Part shown: one piece after another, positions 30,790 through 42,570 of the stretch | Layout: each line of letters opens with the position of its first letter | How positions within the stretch are numbered: the first letter of the stretch is position 1 | Assembly: GCA_024742285.1 (NCBI GenBank) | Contig: JANSYR010000001.1 | Span: forward strand, 620,001 to 684,000 | Direction: 5' to 3' | Length of the DNA: 64,000 nt | DNA from: a bacterium | Lineage (GTDB): Bacteria; Myxococcota_A; UBA9160; UBA4427 | Notes under the pieces: generated by a model | Told to the model about the DNA's origin: nothing | The model's input: the letters and a program-made list of their open reading frames with translations, nothing else | Databases searched by the model: none | Made by a program: the position numbers and the translations under genes

Positions 30790-31464
30790 ATGAAGGCGAC
30801 CCGCGGAAGCCTTCCCGCGAAGCACGCCTGGCTCGCCCTCTTCGCCGTCGGCCTCGGCTGTTCCGGATGGGCCGGCTGCGCGGACCCGAACCACCTGCTC
30901 GACCGCGATCCGGTCAATCCGGACCTCACGATCCACGTCGTCGTCGAAAATCCGGCCGGCTCTAGCGAGAAGTGGGAGGTCCGCCCGGACGGACGACTCG
31001 AGCGCGACTACGACGCCGGCGTCCCGATCGAGATCCAGTACCTGCCCTGGCCCGTCAACGGCGGGATGATGCCGCGCACGCTCCACGCCGCGGAGCTCGG
31101 CGGCGACGGCGAGCCCCTGGACGTGCTCCTCCTCGGACCTGCCGTCGCGCGCGGGACCACCCTGCGCGCCCGACCGATCGGGCTGCTTCGGGTGCTCGAC
31201 TCCCTCGAACGCGACGACAAGATCCTCGCCGTTCCCGAGACGGGCGTCTTCGCGGGGATCGAAACCTGCGACGAGCTCGAGCGCCGCCATCCGGGCGTGC
31301 GCGAGATTCTGGCGCGATGGTTCGAGTACTCGCGCCCCGGCGGCGTGGTCGAGGTCCAGGGCTATGCGACGCGGGAGGCCGCGGCCCTCCTGATCGAAGA
31401 CGCGGTCCGCGCCTTCGACGAGGCGCTCGCGAACGGCGCGCTGCCGAGCTGGAAGAACCCGTGA
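30790..31464 (+). CDS. Exported (lipoprotein-like) inorganic pyrophosphatase homologue
   Basis: The 224-residue precursor has a hydrophobic export signal and a near-lipobox WAGC (Cys30), which would put it in the periplasm or outer membrane. The rest aligns by eye with family I soluble pyrophosphatases: VVVENPAGSSEKWEV (E53, K61, E63), DGEPLDVLL (D106, E108, D111) and LDSLERDDKILAVP (D137, D142, K144). The PPase signature third position, normally Asp, is Glu, and the usual NYGY segment is replaced by VNGGMMP. It may hydrolyse pyrophosphate or have changed substrate. A cytosolic enzyme family found with an export signal is unusual. It overlaps DUF4056 (GTGA). Confidence 0.75.
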   Translation: MKATRGSLPAKHAWLALFAVGLGCSGWAGCADPNHLLDRDPVNPDLTIHVVVENPAGSSEKWEVRPDGRLERDYDAGVPIEIQYLPWPVNGGMMPRTLHAAELGGDGEPLDVLLLGPAVARGTTLRARPIGLLRVLDSLERDDKILAVPETGVFAGIETCDELERRHPGVREILARWFEYSRPGGVVEVQGYATREAAALLIEDAVRAFDEALANGALPSWKNP

Positions 31465-32711
31465 CGCGATCCCCTGCGCACGCGCTCCTTCTCGTCACGC
31501 TCGCGATCGTCGTCGCGGGATGCGCGAGCGATCCGCGCTGGGCGACGACCCGGCGTCCCGACGTCCTCGACGCGGCCTCGCTCCTCGCTTCGAACGTAAC
31601 CGGCCTCGAGCGGATCCTTCGCCCCGACGAAGTCCCCCCGGTTCCGGTTCGAAGGCGCCTCCGGCCGTGCTGCGGCTTCGGGTCCGGGCTGCAGGTGAAG
31701 GTCGGTCGGATGAACGTGCCCGGCGTGGCGATCGGAAACATCCGGGGCCCGAACGACGTCGGTCGCCACGTCTACGACGCCGGCCAGAACGCACAGGACG
31801 TCCTCATCGGCAGCGAGCGAAACGGCCTCGTCTACTCGTGCCGCGGCGGCTTCCTCGACATCGCCCACGTCCGCGACTACGCCGACTGGACCCTCTATCT
31901 CGCGACCGCGATCGGCCGTCGCCTCGAGACCGGCGGCCGGATCGAGCTCCCGGACTCCGAAGGCGGGCTCCGCACGATCGTCCTCCAGCCGGTCGACGCG
32001 CATCACATCGCGGCCCTCGGCCGGAGCGAACTCGCGACCGCCCTCGCCGTCTCGGTCGCCTTCCGGATGTCGGTCTGGCACGAGATCGCGACCTGGTACG
32101 GCTGGTCGAGCTTCAGCCTCTTCCCCGAGCGCGTCTCGGCCTTCTCACCCGAAGACCTCTACTCGAATCTGCTCGGTGCGAAGATCGCGAGCGCGATCAT
32201 CAACTCCGGTGACGCCCTGTCCGAGACGCTCTTCAACGAAGCCATGGACGCGTGGCTCGACCAGTCCATGCGCTTCCTCGGCGCGGTCCCCGCGAGCCTC
32301 GGGGAAGAGATGATGGGCGCCGTCGACGGGCTCTGGTGGGACTCGAAGGCACGACTGCCGGACCCCGCCCTCGTCCTCCGCCGGAACTTCACGGTCGGGC
32401 TCCGTCAGGATCCCTGGACCGTCCCGCCGGATCGGATACCCGACGATCTCTCGGAACGCCTCGACGCGGCGTGCGGGACGGAGCGCGACCCGCTTCCCCT
32501 CCGCAACCCCGTTCGTCTCTTCGAGCTCGTCTTCTCCGAGATCGCCCATCTCGAGCTCGCGCTCGAGCCCGAGCTCGCGAACCACCCCGCCTTCGAGTCG
32601 TACGACGGGACCGTGACCGACGCCGCCTTCCCCGAGCTCCTCGAAGCGATTCGCCTCGAGGCCCGGGAGGAGTTCGGCACCCTCGCCGACCGCCCCACGG
32701 AGAATCCATGA
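31461..32711 (+). CDS. DUF4056 lipoprotein
   Basis: The 416-residue precursor has a type II signal peptide with lipobox VAGC (Cys21). The mature protein shows the DUF4056 pattern: RPCCGFGSGLQVKVGRMNVP, GLVYSCRGGFLDIAHVRDYA with DWTLYLA, and SVWHEIATWYGWSSFSLF. Conserved His, Asp and Glu residues (AHVRDYADW, WHEIATWYG) hint at an enzyme, but the function is unknown. The start is GTG 31461, overlapping the PPase stop; its own stop overlaps the next ATG. It is the middle gene of a tightly coupled operon with the pyrophosphatase and a translocase. Confidence 0.82.
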   Translation: MTRSPAHALLLVTLAIVVAGCASDPRWATTRRPDVLDAASLLASNVTGLERILRPDEVPPVPVRRRLRPCCGFGSGLQVKVGRMNVPGVAIGNIRGPNDVGRHVYDAGQNAQDVLIGSERNGLVYSCRGGFLDIAHVRDYADWTLYLATAIGRRLETGGRIELPDSEGGLRTIVLQPVDAHHIAALGRSELATALAVSVAFRMSVWHEIATWYGWSSFSLFPERVSAFSPEDLYSNLLGAKIASAIINSGDALSETLFNEAMDAWLDQSMRFLGAVPASLGEEMMGAVDGLWWDSKARLPDPALVLRRNFTVGLRQDPWTVPPDRIPDDLSERLDAACGTERDPLPLRNPVRLFELVFSEIAHLELALEPELANHPAFESYDGTVTDAAFPELLEAIRLEAREEFGTLADRPTENP

Positions 32712-34237
32712 CGGCGCCGCCCTCCGCCGACACGCACGACGCCCCACTCGGTCCCCTCGACCGACTCCTCGCCCCCTTCGCGGAGGTGCGCGGCGGCGAG
32801 GGTCTGAGCGTCCTCGTCCTCTTCGCGAACGTCTTCCTGATCCTGACCGCCTACTACGTTCTCAAGGTCGTCCGCGAGGCGCTCACGATCGGCGGGATCG
32901 AGCTCTTCGGATTGGCCGGCGACGAGATCAAGGCGTACCTGCCGGCGGTCATGATGGTCCTGCTGATCGGGATCGTGCCGGCCTACGGAAGGCTCGTGAG
33001 CGCCGTATCGCGCAAGCGACTGCTGAACCTGACGATGGCCTTCACGATGACCACCCTCGTCGGCTTCTGGTTCTGGGGCAAGGCCACCGGCGTCGGCACC
33101 GCGATCGGCCTTTCCTTCTACGTCTACCTCGGGATCGTGAACGTCTTCCTCATCGCCCAGTTCTGGTCCTTCGCGAACGACGTCTACACCGAAGCCCAGG
33201 GAGAACGCCTCTTCGCGATCATCGCGCTCGGCCAGTCGATGGGCGCGGTCCTCGGCCCGCGGATCGCCGCGTTCGGCACCGGCCGGATCTTCGACCTCCT
33301 CCTGATCAGCGCCGGCCTCCTGGGCGTCTGCCTCGCGCTCTACCACGTCTCCGATCGACTCTCGCCAAGCCCGGAAGAGGCGCCGTCGGAGGGATCCGAG
33401 GCGACCGTCGACGACGGGCCCGAAACGCAGGACGAGGGTCAGCGCGAGCAGAGTGGCTTCGGCCTCGTGCTGCGCAAGCCCTATCTCCTGTTGATCGCGC
33501 TGATGATCCTCGTCTCGAACATCGTCAACACGACCGGCGAGTACATCCTCGCGAACGCCGCGAAGCGCCACGCCGAGACGACCGTGGCGGAGCTCCCGGT
33601 GGAGCGTGAGGAGGAGGTCGTGGCGCTGGCGACGATGCGACTCGCGGACGACCCGGGTCTCGATCCCGACACGGCGCGTGAACAGGTTCGGGCGTCGCTG
33701 CTCAAGCTCGAACGATCTTCCGCGATCGGCGCCTTCTACGGCGAGTTCTTCTTCTGGGTGAACCTGATCGGCGTGCTCGCGCAGATGTTCCTCGTGTCGC
33801 GGATCCTCAAGTACGCGGGCATCCGCGCAGCGCTCTTCGTGCTCCCGCTCGTGGCCTTCGGCGGCTATCTCGCGATCGCGCTGACCAGCTCCCTCGTGGT
33901 CCTGCGTGTCGCCAAGACCGCCGAGAACAGCATCGACTACTCCCTCCAGAACACGGTCAAGCAGGCGCTCTTCCTTCCGACGACCCGGGACGAGAAGTAC
34001 AAGGCGAAGGCCGCGATCGACACCTTCTTCGTCCGGCTCGGCGACACGGTCTCTGCGGGGCTCGTCTTCGTCGGCCTCAACGTGATCGGCTTCGGCGTCG
34101 CCGCGTTCGCCTGGCTGAACGTCGCGATGATCGGCCTCTGGATCGGACTGAGCGCCGGAATCGCACGGCAGCACCGCGCCCTGACCGAGACGTCGGAGTC
34201 CGAAGACGCGAGCGAAGGCAGCGCCTCGACCGCCTGA
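32708..34237 (+). CDS. ATP/ADP translocase-family (Npt/NTT) membrane protein
   Basis: The 509-residue product is an integral membrane protein with about 10-12 hydrophobic segments, including VLFANVFLILTAYYVLKVVREAL near the start. This LTAYYxLKxxREAL pattern and the AQFWSFANDVYTEAQGERLF and ALGQSMGAVLGPRI segments are typical of the NTP/NDP exchanger (TlcA/Npt) family. A cytoplasmic charged loop (SPEEAPSEGSEA) separates the halves. Plastid and intracellular-parasite members swap ATP for ADP; free-living bacteria also carry homologues of unknown substrate. It starts within the DUF4056 stop (ATGA). Confidence 0.82.
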   Translation: MTAPPSADTHDAPLGPLDRLLAPFAEVRGGEGLSVLVLFANVFLILTAYYVLKVVREALTIGGIELFGLAGDEIKAYLPAVMMVLLIGIVPAYGRLVSAVSRKRLLNLTMAFTMTTLVGFWFWGKATGVGTAIGLSFYVYLGIVNVFLIAQFWSFANDVYTEAQGERLFAIIALGQSMGAVLGPRIAAFGTGRIFDLLLISAGLLGVCLALYHVSDRLSPSPEEAPSEGSEATVDDGPETQDEGQREQSGFGLVLRKPYLLLIALMILVSNIVNTTGEYILANAAKRHAETTVAELPVEREEEVVALATMRLADDPGLDPDTAREQVRASLLKLERSSAIGAFYGEFFFWVNLIGVLAQMFLVSRILKYAGIRAALFVLPLVAFGGYLAIALTSSLVVLRVAKTAENSIDYSLQNTVKQALFLPTTRDEKYKAKAAIDTFFVRLGDTVSAGLVFVGLNVIGFGVAAFAWLNVAMIGLWIGLSAGIARQHRALTETSESEDASEGSASTA

Positions 34238-34264
34238 CGTGCGACCCGCGCCGCGGGCGCGCGC

Positions 34265-35185
34265 CTAGAAGACGAAGGCGGCGCGGATCCCGGGACCGCC
34301 CTCGACGATCGAAGGCAGCACGAAGCCGAAGGCCTCGGGCTCGCCGTCCGGGCCCGGCGCCGACTCGTATCGCAACAGGTCGAAGGGGCCCCAGGTGTCG
34401 AACCAGCCGACCGTGCCCCCGATCGCCAGGCCGGCAAGCACGTCGGTCAGCCAGTGGCGATCCGCATTCACGCGAAGCGAGGCGGTCGCCAGAGCCAACG
34501 TCGAACCCACCGCACAGGGCATCGCCCGCGCCAGCCGGGTCGAGCCCCATGCGCGCCGCTTGACCGACCAGGCGCAGGTCAAGCCCGCTCCCGTGGCCGC
34601 GAGCGTCGCGTGTCCCGAGACGAAGCTCCGAAAGCGATCGCCGCCCGGACAGGTCTCGTCGGAGCCTCCGTCCGGTCCGCACTCACGATTGAAGGGCCGC
34701 AGACGCCCCGAAGCGAGCTTGATCGACTCGGAAATCATGAGCGACAGACCGAAGGCCTCGACGAGATCCGTCGCCATGTCCCAGCTCTCCTCACAGTCGC
34801 CGGTCCGCCATTGTTGGACACCGATCGACAGGACCGGGAGGACGGCCAGGCTCGAGGCCAGGGTCACGTCGCTCGCGACGTCCGCGCGCCGCCGGTCCCC
34901 GGGCTTCTCGAGTCGGAAGTCGCTTCGGGCGTTCTCGTCGAGGGAGTTCACCGCCGACCAGCGTTGGCCCGCGTCGCCTCCGAGGCTGACGGCGCCGCCG
35001 ATCAGCGCGAAGGCGACCCCGTTGTAGAGGTCCCGATTCGCGTCGGAGCGGACCCATCCGTCGAAACCGCCGTAGAACGAGTCGCAGAAGGGTTCCGCGA
35101 GCGCCGCCGAGGAGGCGAGCACGGCGACCAGGAGCGCCGCGAGCGCGAGAAGGCGAGTCACCCCACGACGAGGCAGCCCGCGCAT
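34265..35185 (-). CDS. PAP2-family phosphatase, exported
   Basis: The 306-residue product has a signal peptide (ALLVAVLASSAALAEP) and the three PAP2 motifs: KLASGRLRPF, FVSGHATLAATGAG, and SLRVNADRHWLTDVLAG with catalytic His and Asp. Normally the first motif is KxxxxxxRP and the third SRxxxxxHxxxD; here Leu replaces Ser-adjacent residues slightly. It dephosphorylates lipid phosphates, undecaprenyl pyrophosphate or similar compounds at the periplasmic face. ATG 35185 is chosen for the signal peptide. It lies in opposite orientation between two translocase-family genes, inside a cluster rich in phosphate and nucleotide proteins. Confidence 0.88.
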   Translation of the reverse strand: MRGLPRRGVTRLLALAALLVAVLASSAALAEPFCDSFYGGFDGWVRSDANRDLYNGVAFALIGGAVSLGGDAGQRWSAVNSLDENARSDFRLEKPGDRRRADVASDVTLASSLAVLPVLSIGVQQWRTGDCEESWDMATDLVEAFGLSLMISESIKLASGRLRPFNRECGPDGGSDETCPGGDRFRSFVSGHATLAATGAGLTCAWSVKRRAWGSTRLARAMPCAVGSTLALATASLRVNADRHWLTDVLAGLAIGGTVGWFDTWGPFDLLRYESAPGPDGEPEAFGFVLPSIVEGGPGIRAAFVF

Positions 35186-35370
35186 CGACCTTCTATCTTC
35201 TCGACGGGTTCGGGCGCTCGACACGCCCGAAGACTCGGCGTCTCCGAGCGGGGCGTCAACGGGTCGAACCTTCCATGACCGGAAGATTGCCTTTTCTGCT
35301 GCGCGCCCGCCCAACCCGTTCGCCCGGATCGACGCCTCGAACCCGCGAACGAGGTAGCCTCTCCTTTCCC

Positions 35371-38145
35371 ATGGCCAGCGATTCCCCCTCCCAGGCTCGG
35401 CTCCGTCGGGCGGCGGCCGCGACCCTCGGCACCGTGATGGCCGGGCACATGCTGCTCGAGACGGCGAACGACGCCCTCTTCCTGGCGAACGTCGCCGTCG
35501 AGCGCCTGCCCTTCATGACGATCGCCGTCGCCTTCCTCGCGCTCGGCGTCGCGCGGCTCGACGGCGGTCGGAGCCACCGCCCCGTGCTGGGCGTGCTCCA
35601 GATCACGGCCGTCATCGGCACACTGGTCCTCTGGTCCCTCGTCTCGACCGGCATCACGAGCGTCTTCTACGCCCTCTACGTGTGGTCGGGGATCATCACG
35701 AGCCTGATCGTCGTTCGCTTCTGGCTGCTCCTCGGCGACGTCTTCACGATCAGCGAGGGCAAGCGCCACTTCGCGTCGATCGCGATGGGTGGCTCCGCGG
35801 GCGCGGTCGTCGGGTCGCTGATCGCGGTGAGCGCCGCACCCAGCTTCGGCGGCGAAGGGCTGCTCGTGCTCTCCGCGGCCTGCTTCGCGCTGAGCGGAGC
35901 GGGCTGGTTCCGACTGGACGTGTCGGAAGAGGCCGCGGTCGCGAGCATGCCCGAGGCCGAAGCGCGCGTCTCGTGGTTGGAGAGTGCGAAGGGCCTCGCG
36001 CAGGACCCCTACGCGGTCCGCGTCTCGCTCCTCGTGATGACCGGCGGCATGACTCTGTCCGTCGCCGACTATCTCTTCAAGAGCGTGATCGCCGCCGAGA
36101 TCTCGCCGGACCAGCTCGCCGCCTGGCTCTCGCGGGTCTATCTCGGCCTGAACCTGCTCTCGATCCTGCTCCTCGGGCTGGGCGTCACGCCGCTCCTGCG
36201 TCGCCTCGGGATCGACCGCTCGCTCGCGGTGATGCCCGCGCTCTTCGCGATCGCCGCGGCGGGGGTCCTCGCCGGCGCGACCCTCGTCTCGACGATCGGC
36301 ATGAAGCTGGCGGATGGCGCCCTTCGCTACTCGCTGCACAAGACGGCGACGGAGCTCCTCTTCCTGCCGATGAGCTCCGCGGTCCGGCGAACGGTCAAGA
36401 CGGCGATCGACCTCGTCGGGACGACCGGCGCCAAGGCCCTTGGCTCCCTTCTCATCCTGGCGATCGTCATGCGGCCGGATCCGCAGCCCCTCGTCGCCGG
36501 CGCGCTGCTGATCCTGGCCGGCGCCTGGATCGCCCAGGCCCTCGCTCTCCGGCAGACCTACCTGAACGTGTTCCGCCGGACCCTCGACGAGGGGTCGATC
36601 GAGACGCGGCTCGAGCACCCGGAGCTCGACCTGCAGTCGGCCGGCGCGCTGCTCCGCGCGTTGAGCGATCCCGACCCGGCGCGCTCCCTCGCGGCGCTGC
36701 AGCTGCTGTCGGAGCGCGGCCAGAGTGATCTGATCCCGAACCTCGTCCTCTATCACCCGGCGCCGGAGGTCGTGGCCGCGGCGCTCGACGTGCTGACGCG
36801 GGACGGTCGCGACGATCTCGGCCATCTGCTCCCCGTCCTGACCGATCACGACGATTCGAAGGTCAGGGCGGCGGCGGTCCGCGCGCGCTGGGCCCTCGAC
36901 CGGGACGTCGAGGCGATGCGCGCCTTCGAAGCGAGCGACTGTCTCGTCGTTCGACTGAGCGCGATCGCGGGGCTCTTCTCGGTCGGCGAGGTCGGTCACG
37001 GTCGCTTCGAATCGATCCTCTCGGAGGCCCTCGCCTATCCGGAAGCGGACGCGCGGCTGGCGGCGGCCCACGCCGCGCGACTCTACTACGACCCGGTCTA
37101 TCGCGAGACGCTGGTGCTGCTCGCCCGCGACGCGGATCTCGAGGTCGCGCACGCGGCGGTCCACGCGATGCGCGGGAGTCGCGACGAGTGGTTCATCCCC
37201 GAGCTCGTCGACCTGCTCGTCGTGCGCGGCATCCGCGGGGACGTCCGTCGCGCGCTCGTCGCCGCCGGGCCGCCCGCGATCGACGAGCTCGCCAGGCGAC
37301 TCGGCTGCGACAAGACCGGGATCGCGGTCCAGGCGCAGATTCCGCGGACCCTCGCGCGCTTCCACTCCCGTGAAGCTGCCGAGCAGCTGATCACTTCGCT
37401 CACCCGGGTCGAGAGTGGTCTCGTCCGCTTCCGGATCCTGGCCGCGCTCGAGACGCTCCTCGACCGGCGCCGGACCGGCGACGAAGCCTCCCGCGACCTC
37501 CGCAAGGCCCTCGACCTGTCGCCCCTCCAGAGCGAGTTCGATCGCACCCTCGCCCGAGCCCAGGAGATGTGGGCGACGGAGCAGGGCCTCGCGATCGCGC
37601 AGGCGAGCCACCCGACCCATCGCACCGTCGGCGGCGAGCTCCTCGTCGACGTGCTGCGCGACAAGCGCGCCCTCGCGGTCGGTCGGCTCTTCCGGATGCT
37701 CGCGCTGCTCCATCCGAACGAGGACTTCCATTCGATCGAGGACGGGCTGCGCACGGGGGACGTCTCGGAGCGCGCCGCCGCCGAGGAGATCGTCGAGACG
37801 GTCCTGCGTGCGGACGTCGCAGCTACGCTCCTCGCGGTCACCCGGGGCGAGGGCGCCGTTCCGTCCGGACTCGCGAGCGTCGCCGGCTTCGACGAGCACT
37901 ATGCGAACCTGCTGGGTCACGTCCTCGAAGACGCGAGCGCGACCCTCCGAGCCGTGGCGCTCTATCACGCGGACGAGATCGGGCACATCCCCGCGGCGGC
38001 CGCAGCGCCGGAAGCGACGCGACCGGCGACCGCGGGCGCGACCGGCGCGACCGGCGTGGTCGCGCGCGGTCGCGAACGCGGGCTCGCGGCGATCCGAGAT
38101 CTCTTCGACCGGGACGCGGGCGAAGCGCAGAAGGCGATGGGGTGA
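35371..38145 (+). CDS. ATP/ADP translocase-like membrane domain fused to HEAT repeats
   Basis: The 924-residue product has an N-terminal membrane domain of about 415 residues with about 10-12 helices, related in pattern to the NTT/MFS translocase at 32708 (VRFWLLLGDVFTISEGKRHF, GGSAGAVVGSL, LHKTATELLFLPMSSAVRR). From about 430 to 890 there is a long helical solenoid of HEAT/ARM-like units (ALSDPDPARSLAALQLLSERG, LLPVLTDHDDSKVRAAAVRA). An Ala/Thr/Gly-rich linker lies at the end. Membrane-solenoid fusions of this kind suggest a receptor or scaffold rather than a simple exchanger. ATG 35371 is chosen after the divergent PAP2 promoter. The next gene starts 1 bp after its stop. Confidence 0.8.
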   Translation: MASDSPSQARLRRAAAATLGTVMAGHMLLETANDALFLANVAVERLPFMTIAVAFLALGVARLDGGRSHRPVLGVLQITAVIGTLVLWSLVSTGITSVFYALYVWSGIITSLIVVRFWLLLGDVFTISEGKRHFASIAMGGSAGAVVGSLIAVSAAPSFGGEGLLVLSAACFALSGAGWFRLDVSEEAAVASMPEAEARVSWLESAKGLAQDPYAVRVSLLVMTGGMTLSVADYLFKSVIAAEISPDQLAAWLSRVYLGLNLLSILLLGLGVTPLLRRLGIDRSLAVMPALFAIAAAGVLAGATLVSTIGMKLADGALRYSLHKTATELLFLPMSSAVRRTVKTAIDLVGTTGAKALGSLLILAIVMRPDPQPLVAGALLILAGAWIAQALALRQTYLNVFRRTLDEGSIETRLEHPELDLQSAGALLRALSDPDPARSLAALQLLSERGQSDLIPNLVLYHPAPEVVAAALDVLTRDGRDDLGHLLPVLTDHDDSKVRAAAVRARWALDRDVEAMRAFEASDCLVVRLSAIAGLFSVGEVGHGRFESILSEALAYPEADARLAAAHAARLYYDPVYRETLVLLARDADLEVAHAAVHAMRGSRDEWFIPELVDLLVVRGIRGDVRRALVAAGPPAIDELARRLGCDKTGIAVQAQIPRTLARFHSREAAEQLITSLTRVESGLVRFRILAALETLLDRRRTGDEASRDLRKALDLSPLQSEFDRTLARAQEMWATEQGLAIAQASHPTHRTVGGELLVDVLRDKRALAVGRLFRMLALLHPNEDFHSIEDGLRTGDVSERAAAEEIVETVLRADVAATLLAVTRGEGAVPSGLASVAGFDEHYANLLGHVLEDASATLRAVALYHADEIGHIPAAAAAPEATRPATAGATGATGVVARGRERGLAAIRDLFDRDAGEAQKAMG

Positions 38146-38146
38146 G

Positions 38147-39094
38147 ATGGCCCGACTGCCCCTCGTCTCGCCCCTCGACCGGATCCTCTTCCTGAAGGCC
38201 CAGCCCTATCTGGTGGGCCAGACACCCGGGGTCCTGACCGCGCTCGCGTCCTACACCGAAGACCGATTCCATGCCGCGGGCACCGTGGTGCGTCCGGCGA
38301 GCAAGCGCTTCGACGAGATCCTCTTTCTCGCCGAGGGCGCCGTCGAGATCCTCGAAGCCAGCGCGCGACGGATCGAGGCACCTGGCGTGATCGGCATCCC
38401 ACACGCGGCGACCGGAGCGACCGAAGCGCCGGAGATCCATGCCGCCGAGGACACGTTGCTCCTCGCGATCGCGACGGCGGACATGGATCAGATCCTCGAT
38501 GATCATTCTGCGCTCCTGATGAACTTCTCCCTTCGGACGGCCGAGCAGTTCCTCCACGTAGAGCGTTCTCTCGGCGATCAGCGACCGGAGATCCCGGCGT
38601 TCTCCGAAGAAGACGGCGCCGGTACTCCGATCGAGCTCGACCTCGTCCACCGCCTCGCCCGCGCGCGACGCGCCCCCTTCTTCGCCGAAACGAACCTGTC
38701 CGTCCTCGGCCAGCTCATCCGCTACGAAGAGGTCCGCCGCATCCAACCCCAGGAAGCGCTCTGGGAGATCGGTGATCCCATCCAGGAGATGACGCTCGTG
38801 CTCGACGGGAGCTTCGAGAGTCGCGGTCCGTTTCCGGTCACCAACGCCCGGGCGGGGGCGGTGATAGGCGCATACGATATTCTCTCGGAGGGCGATCGCG
38901 AGGAATCGTGGGTCGCTCGGAAGCCCAGCCGGGTCCTCGACATCTCACGCAACCATTTCATCGACGTCTTCGAAGACTACCCCGAGTTCGCACGCGCCTA
39001 TCATGCCTACTGCGCGAGAGCGACCCTCGACGCCTGGGATCGCGCGGCGCGCCTCGAGAGACTCGACGTCCAGACCGCAGATCACACGACCTGA
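38147..39094 (+). CDS. Cyclic-nucleotide-binding-domain-like protein (degenerate tandem)
   Basis: The 315-residue product appears to hold two cupin-like cNMP-binding-fold units: about residues 20-130 (FHAAGTVVRPASKRFDEILFLAEGAVEIL) and about 170-310 (IRYEEVRRIQPQEALWEIGD, EMTLVLDGSFES, AGAVIGAYDILSEG). The phosphate-binding cassette of true cAMP receptors (GExx...RxA) is not clear, so ligand binding may be lost or altered. No DNA-binding domain is attached. It follows the translocase-HEAT gene by 1 bp and precedes the barrel gene by 10 bp, placing it in the same operon, where it may regulate the translocase-like protein. Confidence 0.7.
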   Translation: MARLPLVSPLDRILFLKAQPYLVGQTPGVLTALASYTEDRFHAAGTVVRPASKRFDEILFLAEGAVEILEASARRIEAPGVIGIPHAATGATEAPEIHAAEDTLLLAIATADMDQILDDHSALLMNFSLRTAEQFLHVERSLGDQRPEIPAFSEEDGAGTPIELDLVHRLARARRAPFFAETNLSVLGQLIRYEEVRRIQPQEALWEIGDPIQEMTLVLDGSFESRGPFPVTNARAGAVIGAYDILSEGDREESWVARKPSRVLDISRNHFIDVFEDYPEFARAYHAYCARATLDAWDRAARLERLDVQTADHTT

Positions 39095-39104
39095 GGAGGG
39101 ACCC

Positions 39105-41771
39105 TTGATCGCGACCGCCCTTCCCCGACGTCTTGCTGCCGGCGGGATTCTTCCGCTTCTCGCGTCCGGACTGGTCTGTCTCGTCTTCGCGGCTCCCGCC
39201 TTCGGACAAGCGGAGGCGGACGAAGCGCCGAACGACACGGTCCGGGTCGCAGCCAGCGACCGGTACAAGGCGGGCCGCGTCTATCGCTGGGCGCTCGGCG
39301 GCGGCTACCGCGATCTCTGGGAAGCGCCGATCCTGCTTCCGCTCCTCGACCTCGAGAACGAAGGCGGCGGCCTCGAGCCGGTCGGACGCTTCGGCGGACT
39401 CCAGACCGCGGTCCTCGGGCTGAAGGGAGAGGACGGCGGGAGCTACACCTTCCGCGGCACGGACAAGGACCCCTCCGCCGTCCTCGACGATCTGCTCCGG
39501 GACACCCTCGTGCAGGTGATCGTCCAGGACCAGATGGCAGCACAGCATCCGGGCGGCCCCGTCGTCGCCGGCGCGCTCACCCGGGCGGCGAACGTGCTCA
39601 CGATCGACGAACGCATGGTCGTCGTCCCCGACGATCCGCGCCTCGGCGAGTACCGCGAAGAGTTCGCGGGGATGGTCGGGACCTATTTCGTCTATCCGCA
39701 GGCGGCGGACGGAACGCGGCCCGGCTTCGAGGGCGCCGTCGAGATCCTCGATCACGAAGCGCTCTACGAACGACTGCGCGCCGATTCGCGATTCGCGGTC
39801 GACGAGCGGGCCTTCCTCCGTGCGCGCCTCATGGACCTCCTCCTCGGCGACTTCGACCGCCATCGCAAGCAGTGGCGCTGGGCGAAGGTCCCGGGTGAAG
39901 AGGCCGTCCAGCCGATCCCCGAAGATCGCGACCAGGCCTTCGTCCGCTACGACGGCATCGCCCAGCGGATCATGAAGGTCTACATCCCGATCCTGCAGAA
40001 CTACGGTCCGGACTATCCGGGAGTGAAGGGCCTGACCCTGCACGGTTGGGAGCAGGACCGTTGGTTGCTGCCCGCGCTCTCGTGGAGCGACTGGACGGAG
40101 GTCGCCGCCGAAATCCAGGCGAGCCTGACCGATGCGGTGATCGACGCGGCGGTCGACCGACTCCCGCCCGAGTACGAAGCCCTCGACGGCGAACGCCTGC
40201 GCACCGACATCAAGGGTCGCCGGGACCACCTTCCCGAGATCGCGCGCAGCTTCTACGAGCACCTGGCGCGCGAGGTCGACGTCCGGCTCTCGTTCGCCGC
40301 AGAGCGCGTCGAGGTGGTCCACGGGAGCGACGACCGCATGCGCGTGACGGTCCGCGCCCTCGCCGGCGATCCGGCGGCGCCGATCTTCGACCGGACCTTC
40401 GATCCCGACGAGACGAAGGAGGTCCGGCTCTATCTCGGCGGCGGCGCCGACCACGTCGTCGTCGAGGGCGGCCCGGGATGGATCCGGCTGCGGGCGATCG
40501 TCGAGGCCGACTCGAAGACGATCGACGTCCGCGGCTCGACCCACACCCGGATCTACGACCCCGAGAACCGCGCCGCGATCAAGCTCGGCGCCAACACCCG
40601 CGTCGACCGACGCCCCTATGTTCCGCCGCCGCCGGACTCCGGTTTCGTCGACGTCGAAGACGTTCCGCCGCGGGACTGGGGCAGCGACACGATCCCGCTC
40701 CCGGAGTTCGGTTTCCAGCCCGACGTCGGGGTGTTCCTCGGCGGCGCGGTCGCCCATACCCGCTACGGCTTCCGCAAGGATCCCTGGTCCAGCAAGCACA
40801 GCCTGGGCTTCGGCTGGGCCTTCGAAGCGAGTGCGCCCCGCGTCCGGTACCGCGGCCAGTTCCGTCCCGAGAACCGCGACGTCGTCGCCCAGCTCGACCT
40901 CCAGTACTCGGGGATCGAGGTCGTCCGCTTCTACGGCTTCGGCAACGAGACCCGCGACCGCGGCAACGACCGTTTCTTCCGCGTCCGCAACGAGCGCTAC
41001 GACGTCGCCCTCCAGGCCGTCCAGCCCTTCTTCGACGATCGACTGAAGATCCGGGGCGGCGCCGACTTCCGCATCTCCCGAACGCGCAACGGCACGCGCC
41101 GGATCGACCAGGACCTGCCCTACGGCAACAACGACTTCCTCGCGCCCGGGGTCGTGGCCGGGCTCCAGTGGGATACTCGAAAATCGGTCGAGACGACGAA
41201 GACCAACCTCCAGCTCCCGTTCCTCGACAACCCCGCCGCGGGCTACCCGACGAGCGGCTTCCTGATCGATCTCGCCGCCCGCTTCGCGCCACCCCTCGCC
41301 GACGTCCGTCAGAGCTACGGCTCGATCCGCGGCTCGATCGCCGGCTTCTTCTCTCTCGGCGAGACCGATCGCGTGACCCTCGCCCTCCGCGCCGGCGGGA
41401 CCGAGACCTTCGGCCAGACCCCCTACTTCGACCTCGCGACGATCGGCGGCGGTCGCTTCTTCAGCGGCGACGCCACCAACCGCGGCCTACGCTCCCAGCG
41501 CCTGACCGGCGACTCCGCCGTCTTCGGCAACGCGGACCTGCGGATCGTGCTGGGTCGCGCCAAGCTGATCGTGCCCGGCGACTACGGGATCCACGGCTTC
41601 TTCGACGTCGGTCGCGTGTTCTTCCACGACGAGGGCTCCGACGAGTGGCATCCGACCGGCGGCGGGGGCGTCTTCTTCTCGCCGCTCCTGCGGACCAACA
41701 CGCTCAGCCTGTCGGCGTCGGGCGGACCGGAAGAGACGCTCATCTACTTCCGGATCGGCTTCCACTACTGA
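39105..41771 (+). CDS. BamA/TamA-type outer-membrane protein with N-terminal kinase-like region
   Basis: The 888-residue precursor starts at TTG 39105, supported by GAGGAGG at 39093-39100, and has a signal peptide (LVCLVFAAPAFGQ). Residues about 110-330 carry YTFRGTDKDP, VYLP-like VVVPDDPRLGEYREEF, LLGDFDRHRKQWRW (246-259) and PIPEDRDQAF (270-279). These resemble the Bacteroidota phosphatase-linked BamA family and, by spacing, the catalytic DxxxH/N and metal-binding Asp of HipA/CotH/Fam20-type kinases. The C-terminal about 330 residues form a 16-strand surface-antigen barrel ending in FRIGFHY. It probably inserts in the outer membrane with a periplasmic enzyme-like head. Confidence 0.78.
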   Translation: MIATALPRRLAAGGILPLLASGLVCLVFAAPAFGQAEADEAPNDTVRVAASDRYKAGRVYRWALGGGYRDLWEAPILLPLLDLENEGGGLEPVGRFGGLQTAVLGLKGEDGGSYTFRGTDKDPSAVLDDLLRDTLVQVIVQDQMAAQHPGGPVVAGALTRAANVLTIDERMVVVPDDPRLGEYREEFAGMVGTYFVYPQAADGTRPGFEGAVEILDHEALYERLRADSRFAVDERAFLRARLMDLLLGDFDRHRKQWRWAKVPGEEAVQPIPEDRDQAFVRYDGIAQRIMKVYIPILQNYGPDYPGVKGLTLHGWEQDRWLLPALSWSDWTEVAAEIQASLTDAVIDAAVDRLPPEYEALDGERLRTDIKGRRDHLPEIARSFYEHLAREVDVRLSFAAERVEVVHGSDDRMRVTVRALAGDPAAPIFDRTFDPDETKEVRLYLGGGADHVVVEGGPGWIRLRAIVEADSKTIDVRGSTHTRIYDPENRAAIKLGANTRVDRRPYVPPPPDSGFVDVEDVPPRDWGSDTIPLPEFGFQPDVGVFLGGAVAHTRYGFRKDPWSSKHSLGFGWAFEASAPRVRYRGQFRPENRDVVAQLDLQYSGIEVVRFYGFGNETRDRGNDRFFRVRNERYDVALQAVQPFFDDRLKIRGGADFRISRTRNGTRRIDQDLPYGNNDFLAPGVVAGLQWDTRKSVETTKTNLQLPFLDNPAAGYPTSGFLIDLAARFAPPLADVRQSYGSIRGSIAGFFSLGETDRVTLALRAGGTETFGQTPYFDLATIGGGRFFSGDATNRGLRSQRLTGDSAVFGNADLRIVLGRAKLIVPGDYGIHGFFDVGRVFFHDEGSDEWHPTGGGGVFFSPLLRTNTLSLSASGGPEETLIYFRIGFHY

Positions 41772-42570
41772 CGCGCGACGCGTTTCCGATCGCCTGCCAC
41801 GACGGAAGGGCGTCGCGCTCGATCCCCGCGTAGGCGATCGCGCGCGCTTCCTCGAAGTCGAGATCCGTCTCGAGGAGCTCGTCGATCGTCCAGCCCTCGT
41901 CCTCGAGCAACCAGGCGACGGCCAGACGATACGGCGCGTAGACGCCGTGGGCCTTCATCATGGGGAGATCCGCGTCCTCGCGTCCGATCTTCGCGTAGAG
42001 CGCGCTCGCCGACTCCGGGCGCATGCCGACGTAGTCCGCGAGCCCTTCGATGACCCACTCCGGTCGGAGATGGAAGCCGAGTCCGCCGACCCGGCGGATC
42101 GTCATCACGTGGGTCAGCTCGTGGGCTCCGTAGTAGGCGAGGGTTCGCGGCGGCTTCGTCCGGTAGCCGGTCGGTCCGATCAGCGAGTCGGCCTCGAAGT
42201 CGGCGCCGGAGAAGAAGGCGTGGCCCCGGGTGACCGGAGGCGCGACGAAGCCGCCTGCGGTCCCGGGCGGCACGATCCAGAGCCATGAACGGACCCAGTC
42301 GCGTTCGACCACATAGATGGGCAGCGAAGCGTCCGGCGGACCGAGGGGCGATCGCGCGAGTCTGCGTTCGATCTCCTCGAGGACGGCCATCGCGGGCGCC
42401 ACCGGGATCGGCGCATCCGAACGGAACGAGAGGTTCCCACGCTCGATGCGGTGTGCGAAGAGCGGACTGGGATGGAGGAGCGGTGCGGCGACGAAGAGCG
42501 CGAAGACGAGACACGCGCCCAGACCGACGAGAAGCGCCCGCGCTTTGCGCGAGATCGTCGCCTTCGCCAT
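41740..42570 (-). CDS. Membrane-anchored zinc metallopeptidase-like protein (gluzincin)
   Basis: The 276-residue product has one N-terminal hydrophobic anchor or signal (LLVGLGACLVFALFVAAPLL) and a gluzincin active site HELTH (150-154) with third ligand Glu in EWVIEGLADYVG (Glu175). It therefore faces the periplasm. Its end overlaps the convergent barrel gene by 32 bp. It may share an operon with the crotonase upstream (13-bp gap), although the two functions look unrelated. Substrates are unknown; the fold is like the basic secretory or M48-adjacent small gluzincins. The active site is complete. Confidence 0.8.
   Translation of the reverse strand: MAKATISRKARALLVGLGACLVFALFVAAPLLHPSPLFAHRIERGNLSFRSDAPIPVAPAMAVLEEIERRLARSPLGPPDASLPIYVVERDWVRSWLWIVPPGTAGGFVAPPVTRGHAFFSGADFEADSLIGPTGYRTKPPRTLAYYGAHELTHVMTIRRVGGLGFHLRPEWVIEGLADYVGMRPESASALYAKIGREDADLPMMKAHGVYAPYRLAVAWLLEDEGWTIDELLETDLDFEEARAIAYAGIERDALPSWQAIGNASRVSSGSRSGSR

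Follow-up and report, generated by a model that had tools for sequence, protein, structure and literature searches.

A kinase-fold head on an Omp85-type barrel beside ATP/ADP translocase-family genes, and a possible route to phosphorylation at the bacterial outer membrane

The window analysed here, a 64,000-nucleotide stretch of contig JANSYR010000001.1 (assembly GCA_024742285.1, from a soil-type bacterium; genome size 6.55 Mb), carries between positions 30790 and 41771 a cluster of seven genes, the last of which encodes a protein predicted to join an exported atypical kinase domain to a 16-stranded barrel of the Omp85 superfamily. The cluster also holds two inner-membrane proteins of the ATP/ADP translocase family (TLC1 and TLC2-HEAT), and genes of these two kinds recur together in a second phylum. 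The locus is closest to metagenome-assembled genomes (MAGs) labelled Myxococcota or Deltaproteobacteria. All seven genes were found at the coordinates given by an earlier sequence-only reading, and the two plus-strand blocks that it described, with their overlaps and gaps, were confirmed. Block 1 (30790-34237, plus strand) comprises an inorganic pyrophosphatase homologue, a DUF4056 lipoprotein and TLC1, each gene overlapping the next by 4 bp (31461-31464 and 32708-32711). Block 2 (35275-41771, plus strand) comprises TLC2-HEAT, a cyclic-nucleotide-binding (cNMP) protein and the kinase-headed barrel; a 1-bp gap at 38146 separates the first two genes and a 10-bp gap at 39095-39104 precedes the third, provided that the latter starts at TTG 39105, immediately upstream of which lies GAGGAGGG. 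A PAP2 phosphatase gene on the minus strand is divergent from block 2.

The kinase-headed barrel protein

The barrel protein (39105..41771, plus strand; 888 residues) consists of a clear signal peptide, a kinase domain, a beta linker domain and the barrel. The full-length AlphaFold2 model of the mature protein, built without the signal peptide (pLDDT 87.6, pTM 0.85), places the kinase domain first, a small beta domain next and 16 barrel-forming strands last, and a Foldseek search with this model returned Sam50, TamA and BamA on top (E 2e-11 to 5e-9). In profile searches, the Pfam Omp85 match (2e-4) lies slightly under its cut-off, as does the NCBIfam Omp85_fam match under that model's own despite a value of 2.7e-20. 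As modelled, the C-terminal half (residues ~527-885; 40683..41759, plus strand) is a 16-stranded Omp85-superfamily barrel. No POTRA domain was matched by Pfam in the protein, a search in which the linker beta domain was not queried on its own; Omp85 subfamilies devoid of POTRA domains are on record (PMC4104836).

The head (residues ~35-387; 39207..40265, plus strand), delimited from the AlphaFold2 model and fold searches, is covered by no Pfam or NCBIfam model in the profile search of the window proteins. A sequence search of the PDB with the head retrieved no kinase, so that its assignment to the kinase fold draws on the model (pLDDT 91.1, pTM 0.91). With this model, Foldseek ranked Helicobacter CtkA at the top (E 1e-6), followed by HipA, CotH, PI4KII and Fam20. 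A second structural aligner, in which every listed row was a kinase (Z range 11-15.5), gave PI4KII and CotH at Z 15.4-15.5, CtkA at 14.8 and HipA at ~12, with a bilobal match spanning model residues 4-356. The predicted fold is clearly that of an atypical kinase of the CotH/CtkA/HipA/PI4KII group, and the kinase-like barrel head proposed from the sequence thereby gains a confident model; a head model unrelated to kinases, which the sequence-only reading had set as a refuting outcome, did not come about.

Relatives of the head were gathered from genome contigs and 33 heads from three phyla were aligned; residue numbers count TTG 39105 as residue 1 and equal the numbering of alignment A2 plus 31. 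R117, K121, D142, P175-D176-D177, R241, D244, D251, R252, D274 and D276 are invariant in all 33 heads, and Q256 is present in 32. Based on order and spacing rather than superposition, K121 (39465..39467, plus strand) is the candidate ATP-binding lysine, while a catalytic-loop-like D251-R-H-x-x-Q256 and a metal-site-like P-E-D274-x-D276 (together 39855..39932, plus strand) supply D251 as candidate catalytic aspartate and D274 and D276 as candidate metal-binding residues; D142 counts among the candidate catalytic residues as well. D251, Q256 and D274 are spaced as D309, N314 and D332 are in HipA.

In PlpD, an Omp85 protein, the enzyme head sits in the periplasm (PMC11116518); with this precedent and the signal peptide, the kinase head of the window protein probably faces the periplasm as well.

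The head occurs in several other settings. A Gemmatimonadota MAG carries two diverged kinase-barrel genes in tandem, both with intact catalytic residues (L109:5539-10840; L and G numbers denote loci and genomes), and a Deltaproteobacteria-labelled MAG encodes an exported 489-residue head that lacks a barrel and forms a long branch in the head tree (L123:9836-11302). Bacteroidota plasmids carry a head together with a barrel in Hymenobacter (L136:6636-10391) and in Parabacteroides distasonis (L137:7395-9851), a head alone with a possible lipoprotein signal in another Hymenobacter plasmid (L135:7824-9239) and, in Persicobacter (L134:6864-10505), PF00149 followed by the kinase head and then the Omp85 barrel; these four heads are annotated at most as hypothetical proteins. 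As only 8 of 247 Acidobacteriota-group genomes have it, the head is an accessory trait.

Translocases, other neighbours and recurrence of the cluster

TLC1 (32708..34237, plus strand) and TLC2-HEAT (35275..38145, plus strand, with an ambiguous start at 35275 or 35353), a membrane translocase-family domain followed by HEAT repeats, have Pfam TLC matches of 9e-8 and, for the latter, 5.5e-10, both above cut-off and both weak taken alone; HEAT_2 is also matched in the second protein. The barrel-adjacent TLC protein of a relative matches the structures of the Chlamydia ADP/ATP carrier Npt1 (9j3n, 2.6e-13) and of a plant carrier (9j3j). Four charged columns read basic, acidic, acidic and lysine in nearly all aligned members; TLC1 carries R, D, E and K and TLC2-HEAT N, D, D and K, at columns that may correspond to K155, E245, E385 and K527 of AtNTT1, four charged residues important for transport. 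By their profile matches, both window proteins can be placed in the NTT/TLC ATP-ADP translocase family (PF03219). At the first basic column, the other TLC2-HEAT proteins carry an arginine in place of the asparagine of the window protein. TLC1 is of one subtype with the TLC proteins beside Acidobacteriota barrels, with which it shares 41-43% identity, and shares only 22-24% with those beside barrels of its own family, so that TLC proteins of two subtypes have come to be paired with the kinase-barrel.

The cNMP protein (38147..39094, plus strand; Pfam cNMP_binding 5e-12) was described from the sequence as cNMP-domain-like; the domain stands, and the reservation can be dropped, since two cyclic-nucleotide-binding stretches were matched. 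No hydrophobic segment that could span a membrane was detected in it. Its gene follows TLC-HEAT in relatives too, the gene order being conserved, and in the window begins 1 bp after TLC2-HEAT. This fits the NTT-HEAT plus cNBD operon described, with no function assigned, by Major et al. 2017 (PMC5381601), so that this pair of genes was already known. The cNMP domain accounts for the only PADLOC match in the cluster, and anti-phage defence was discarded as a reading.

A conserved neighbourhood, whose absence from related genomes the sequence-only reading had named beforehand as grounds for refutation, was found in several genera and extends to a second phylum. The order TLC-HEAT, cNMP, TLC, kinase-barrel recurs in L046, L047/L097, L104 and L105 (Myxococcota and Acidobacteriota, the last two being Acidobacteria). 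Within the family of the window genome, G036 has a divergent PAP2 gene followed by TLC2-HEAT, cNMP, TLC and kinase-barrel, G035 shows the same order with no PAP2 gene detected, and G042 and G040 have the parts spread over two contigs. A TLC-barrel pair is found in L048/L098 and L096; L106 reads barrel, TLC, PPK2, Omp85, and L121 (Acidobacteria) reads barrel, PPK2, TLC, Pkinase, PAP2. In G131, the head, a TLC and a PAP2 gene share one contig, with a barrel end, a PPK2 and a second TLC gene on another. PPK2 also stands beside the barrel in L113. In all, PPK2 is adjacent in four Acidobacteriota loci; no signal peptide was seen at the PPK2 starts, as expected for a cytosolic enzyme. The Pkinase gene of L121 encodes a classical Ser/Thr protein kinase (L121:6282-7913), and L106 (13789-16086) and L046 (1638-3695) each carry a further Omp85 gene, of a different kind, in the vicinity of the kinase-barrel and TLC genes.

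Of the ~45 kinase-barrel loci examined, ~12 have a gene of the TLC family no more than 10 kb away; by a rough estimate, fewer than one locus would be expected by chance at ~4 TLC genes per 5 Mb. Loci that share descent are not independent. Judged by gene order, the arrangement is beyond chance, because the same families recur in the same order in other genera and another phylum. In the head tree, the TLC-linked heads fall in the part that holds Myxococcota and most Acidobacteriota, and the mainly Gemmatimonadota part has none. PF03219 genes are carried by 20 of 24 head-bearing genomes; since TLC genes are common, such genome-level co-occurrence is uninformative and only the neighbourhood counts. 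A second NTT context recurs in L043, L050, L063, L064 and similar loci of the same taxonomic order, where a TLC1-like gene lies beside genes for a beta-lactamase/PBP-type protein, an NAD-glutamate dehydrogenase (NAD-GDH) or a PPDK-type protein, and where a TLC-cNMP fusion of ~1057 residues occurs; the TLC genes of L043 and L050, both from other families of the order, were not counted as support.

The remaining genes of the cluster differ in how far they recur. The PAP2 phosphatase (34265..35314, minus strand; PF01569, 3e-18) probably starts at a methionine near codon 44, after which a signal peptide follows, and displays by eye the motifs KxxxxxxRP, SGH and RxxxxxHxxxD. Its family adjoins TLC or kinase-barrel genes in L047, L048, L054, L100, L111, L121 and L155; in the Hymenobacter plasmids, three PAP2 genes surround the standalone head and a UppP gene lies upstream of a head-barrel gene. 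The DUF4056 lipoprotein (31461..32711, plus strand; PF13265, 9e-80) corresponds to CapCone-DUF4056, one of the Lipocones, a superfamily whose predicted targets are for the most part lipid head groups (PMC12419801), and a DUF4056 gene lies directly downstream of the kinase-barrel in one other genus (G040, L090). The family I pyrophosphatase homologue (30790..31464, plus strand; PF00719, 1.4e-20) has a probable lipoprotein signal, SGWAGC, and by eye some altered catalytic residues, DGEPLD replacing DxDPxD. It stands beside DUF4056 and TLC1 only within the same genus (L034), is the least conserved member of the cluster and was rejected as a core part for that reason, contrary to its place in the sequence-only reading. 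On the 3' side of the barrel gene, a minus-strand frame (41740-42570) encodes a zinc-protease-like HELTH motif and an N-terminal hydrophobic segment, with family matches that are all sub-threshold.

A possible ATP supply to the outer membrane and its rivals

ATP is generally taken to be absent from the periplasm, and kinases are therefore not expected there. This frames a possible mechanism, in which TLC1 and/or TLC2-HEAT would swap cytoplasmic ATP outward for ADP, the cNMP-binding partner would gate TLC2-HEAT, and the Omp85-anchored kinase would phosphorylate an envelope substrate in the periplasm. As PAP2, UppP and the Lipocone protein DUF4056 are neighbours, a lipid or lipid-linked glycan would be a likelier substrate than a soluble protein. 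PAP2 would take the phosphate off, opposing or recycling the modification, and ADP would go back to the cytosol, where a PPK2 of the same operon could recharge it to ATP in some relatives. Outward ATP/ADP exchange that feeds an outer-membrane kinase, countered by PAP2 and gated by cyclic nucleotides, is as a whole credited with a little under an even chance; that ATP-driven phosphorylation takes place at the outer membrane, on lipids or proteins, with the translocases as exporters, PAP2 in opposition and PPK2 recharging in some relatives, is likewise tentative and put slightly lower. More speculatively, the kinase-fold head could AMPylate its target, the pyrophosphatase clearing the released pyrophosphate.

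Several observations weigh against this mechanism. No TLC gene lies within 10 kb of the Gemmatimonadota kinase-barrel loci or near the Bacteroidota plasmid examples; judged by these relatives, the translocase is not an obligatory partner of the kinase-barrel. Four of the 24 head-bearing genomes lack any PF03219 match, with a model that is insensitive here. PPK2 is absent from the cluster of the window, where TLC2-HEAT also carries its asparagine at the first basic column. TLC genes of free-living bacteria occur elsewhere too, for example beside NAD-GDH, and the functionally characterised NTTs come almost all from one parasite and plastid transporter group (PMC5381601).

A first rival is an envelope lipid-remodelling cluster that works without ATP export, in which the head, PAP2, DUF4056 and UppP-like neighbours would act on lipid phosphates with another donor or leaked nucleotides, while the TLC proteins, as distant MFS-like carriers, would move something else. 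Adjacency to PAP2 or UppP reaches more phyla than adjacency to TLC, the DUF4056 family is itself predicted to consist of lipid-headgroup enzymes (PMC12419801), the best fold matches of the head include lipid kinases of the PI4KII type, and the window TLC proteins match MFS_1 as well. However, both in Myxococcota and in Acidobacteriota TLC genes recur in tight linkage to the kinase-barrel under several gene orders, PPK2, an ADP/ATP enzyme, recurs too, and the charged NTT columns are retained save for the asparagine of TLC2-HEAT; this alternative is rated less likely than outward exchange. The head could also be a pseudokinase or ligand sensor regulating a barrel that assembles or translocates outer-membrane proteins; the nucleotide genes would then be neighbours for other reasons. 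Omp85 barrels mostly assemble or translocate proteins (PMC4104836), and extra Omp85 genes lie near the L046 and L106 loci. Such a role is nevertheless improbable, as the catalytic lysine and aspartate and the metal-site aspartate are invariant in all 33 heads across three phyla, which is unusual for pseudokinases, and standalone heads exist without a barrel to regulate (L123, L135).

Nucleotide scavenging, in which the barrel would admit extracellular nucleotides, the pyrophosphatase and PAP2 would trim their phosphates and the translocases would import the rest, agrees with the presence of both exported hydrolases and with the direction reported for characterised NTTs of intracellular parasites, which import nucleotides (PMC5381601). 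It is rated somewhat more improbable still: it leaves the conserved kinase active site without a role, the pyrophosphatase is genus-specific, and no nucleotidase was found by Pfam among the seven genes. That unrelated envelope genes have become neighbours by chance could be argued from the 20 of 24 genomes with TLC genes and from several kinase-barrel loci whose long flanks have none, but the excess of TLC genes near the barrel over the estimated expectation, in two phyla and several orders, makes it very improbable.

The outward-exchange mechanism is of interest because the linkage of a conserved outer-membrane-barrel kinase fold to translocases and to ADP recharging makes an extracytoplasmic energy supply directly testable. 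If true, it would also account for the NTT-HEAT-cNMP proteins found in free-living bacteria, whose function was left unexplained in 2017. A kinase domain in Omp85-type proteins, unrecorded in the family libraries searched, is spread over several soil phyla and also reaches Bacteroidota, among them Parabacteroides distasonis. Searches of the open-access literature turned up no paper that deals with a kinase of the Omp85 type or with a bacterial kinase at the outer membrane.

Comparison with known systems

The components have known relatives; as a combination, an Omp85-anchored kinase linked to an ATP/ADP translocase corresponds to no system known to us or found in the open-access literature. 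Kinases of the eukaryotic secretory pathway are fed by ATP-ADP exchangers of the endoplasmic reticulum and Golgi, so that a lumenal kinase works on ATP brought by exchange into a compartment that makes none itself; this is an analogy only, as the transporter families and the compartment differ. The head has the fold of the CotH/FAM20 extracytosolic kinases and of the HipA/CtkA/PI4KII kinases, and its catalytic aspartate, metal-site residue and second aspartate follow one another in the same order and at the same spacing; it differs in sequence (~8-15% identity) and in having a glutamine where HipA has an asparagine. To our knowledge, no kinase of these groups is fused to an outer-membrane barrel.

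The NTT-HEAT and NTT-HEAT-cNBD genes of Major et al. resemble the window in combining a TLC domain with HEAT repeats directly followed by a cyclic-nucleotide-binding gene, and differ in that the accessible part of that paper makes no mention of an outer-membrane kinase-barrel, a second TLC, PAP2 or PPK2 (PMC5381601). The claim made from the sequence that no named system has this composition can be kept for the combination and not for the NTT-HEAT and cNMP pair. With the BAM/TAM assembly factors, the window protein shares the barrel fold, without their POTRA domains as far as Pfam matches go. Heinz and Lithgow 2014 distinguish ten Omp85 subfamilies in a text from which the word "kinase" is absent (PMC4104836); their "Metallo" subfamily (PF00149-Omp85) is approached by the Persicobacter protein, whose kinase head lies inside that architecture, while the window protein has no PF00149. 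A likeness in layout is offered by PlpD and the patatin-Omp85 proteins, where an enzyme domain also lies N-terminal to a 16-stranded Omp85 barrel; there the head is lipase-like and POTRA is present, while the window protein has a kinase-fold head and a small beta domain at the POTRA position (PMC11116518). Taken as a single protein, the kinase-headed barrel is a new variant of the Omp85 proteins with enzyme heads.

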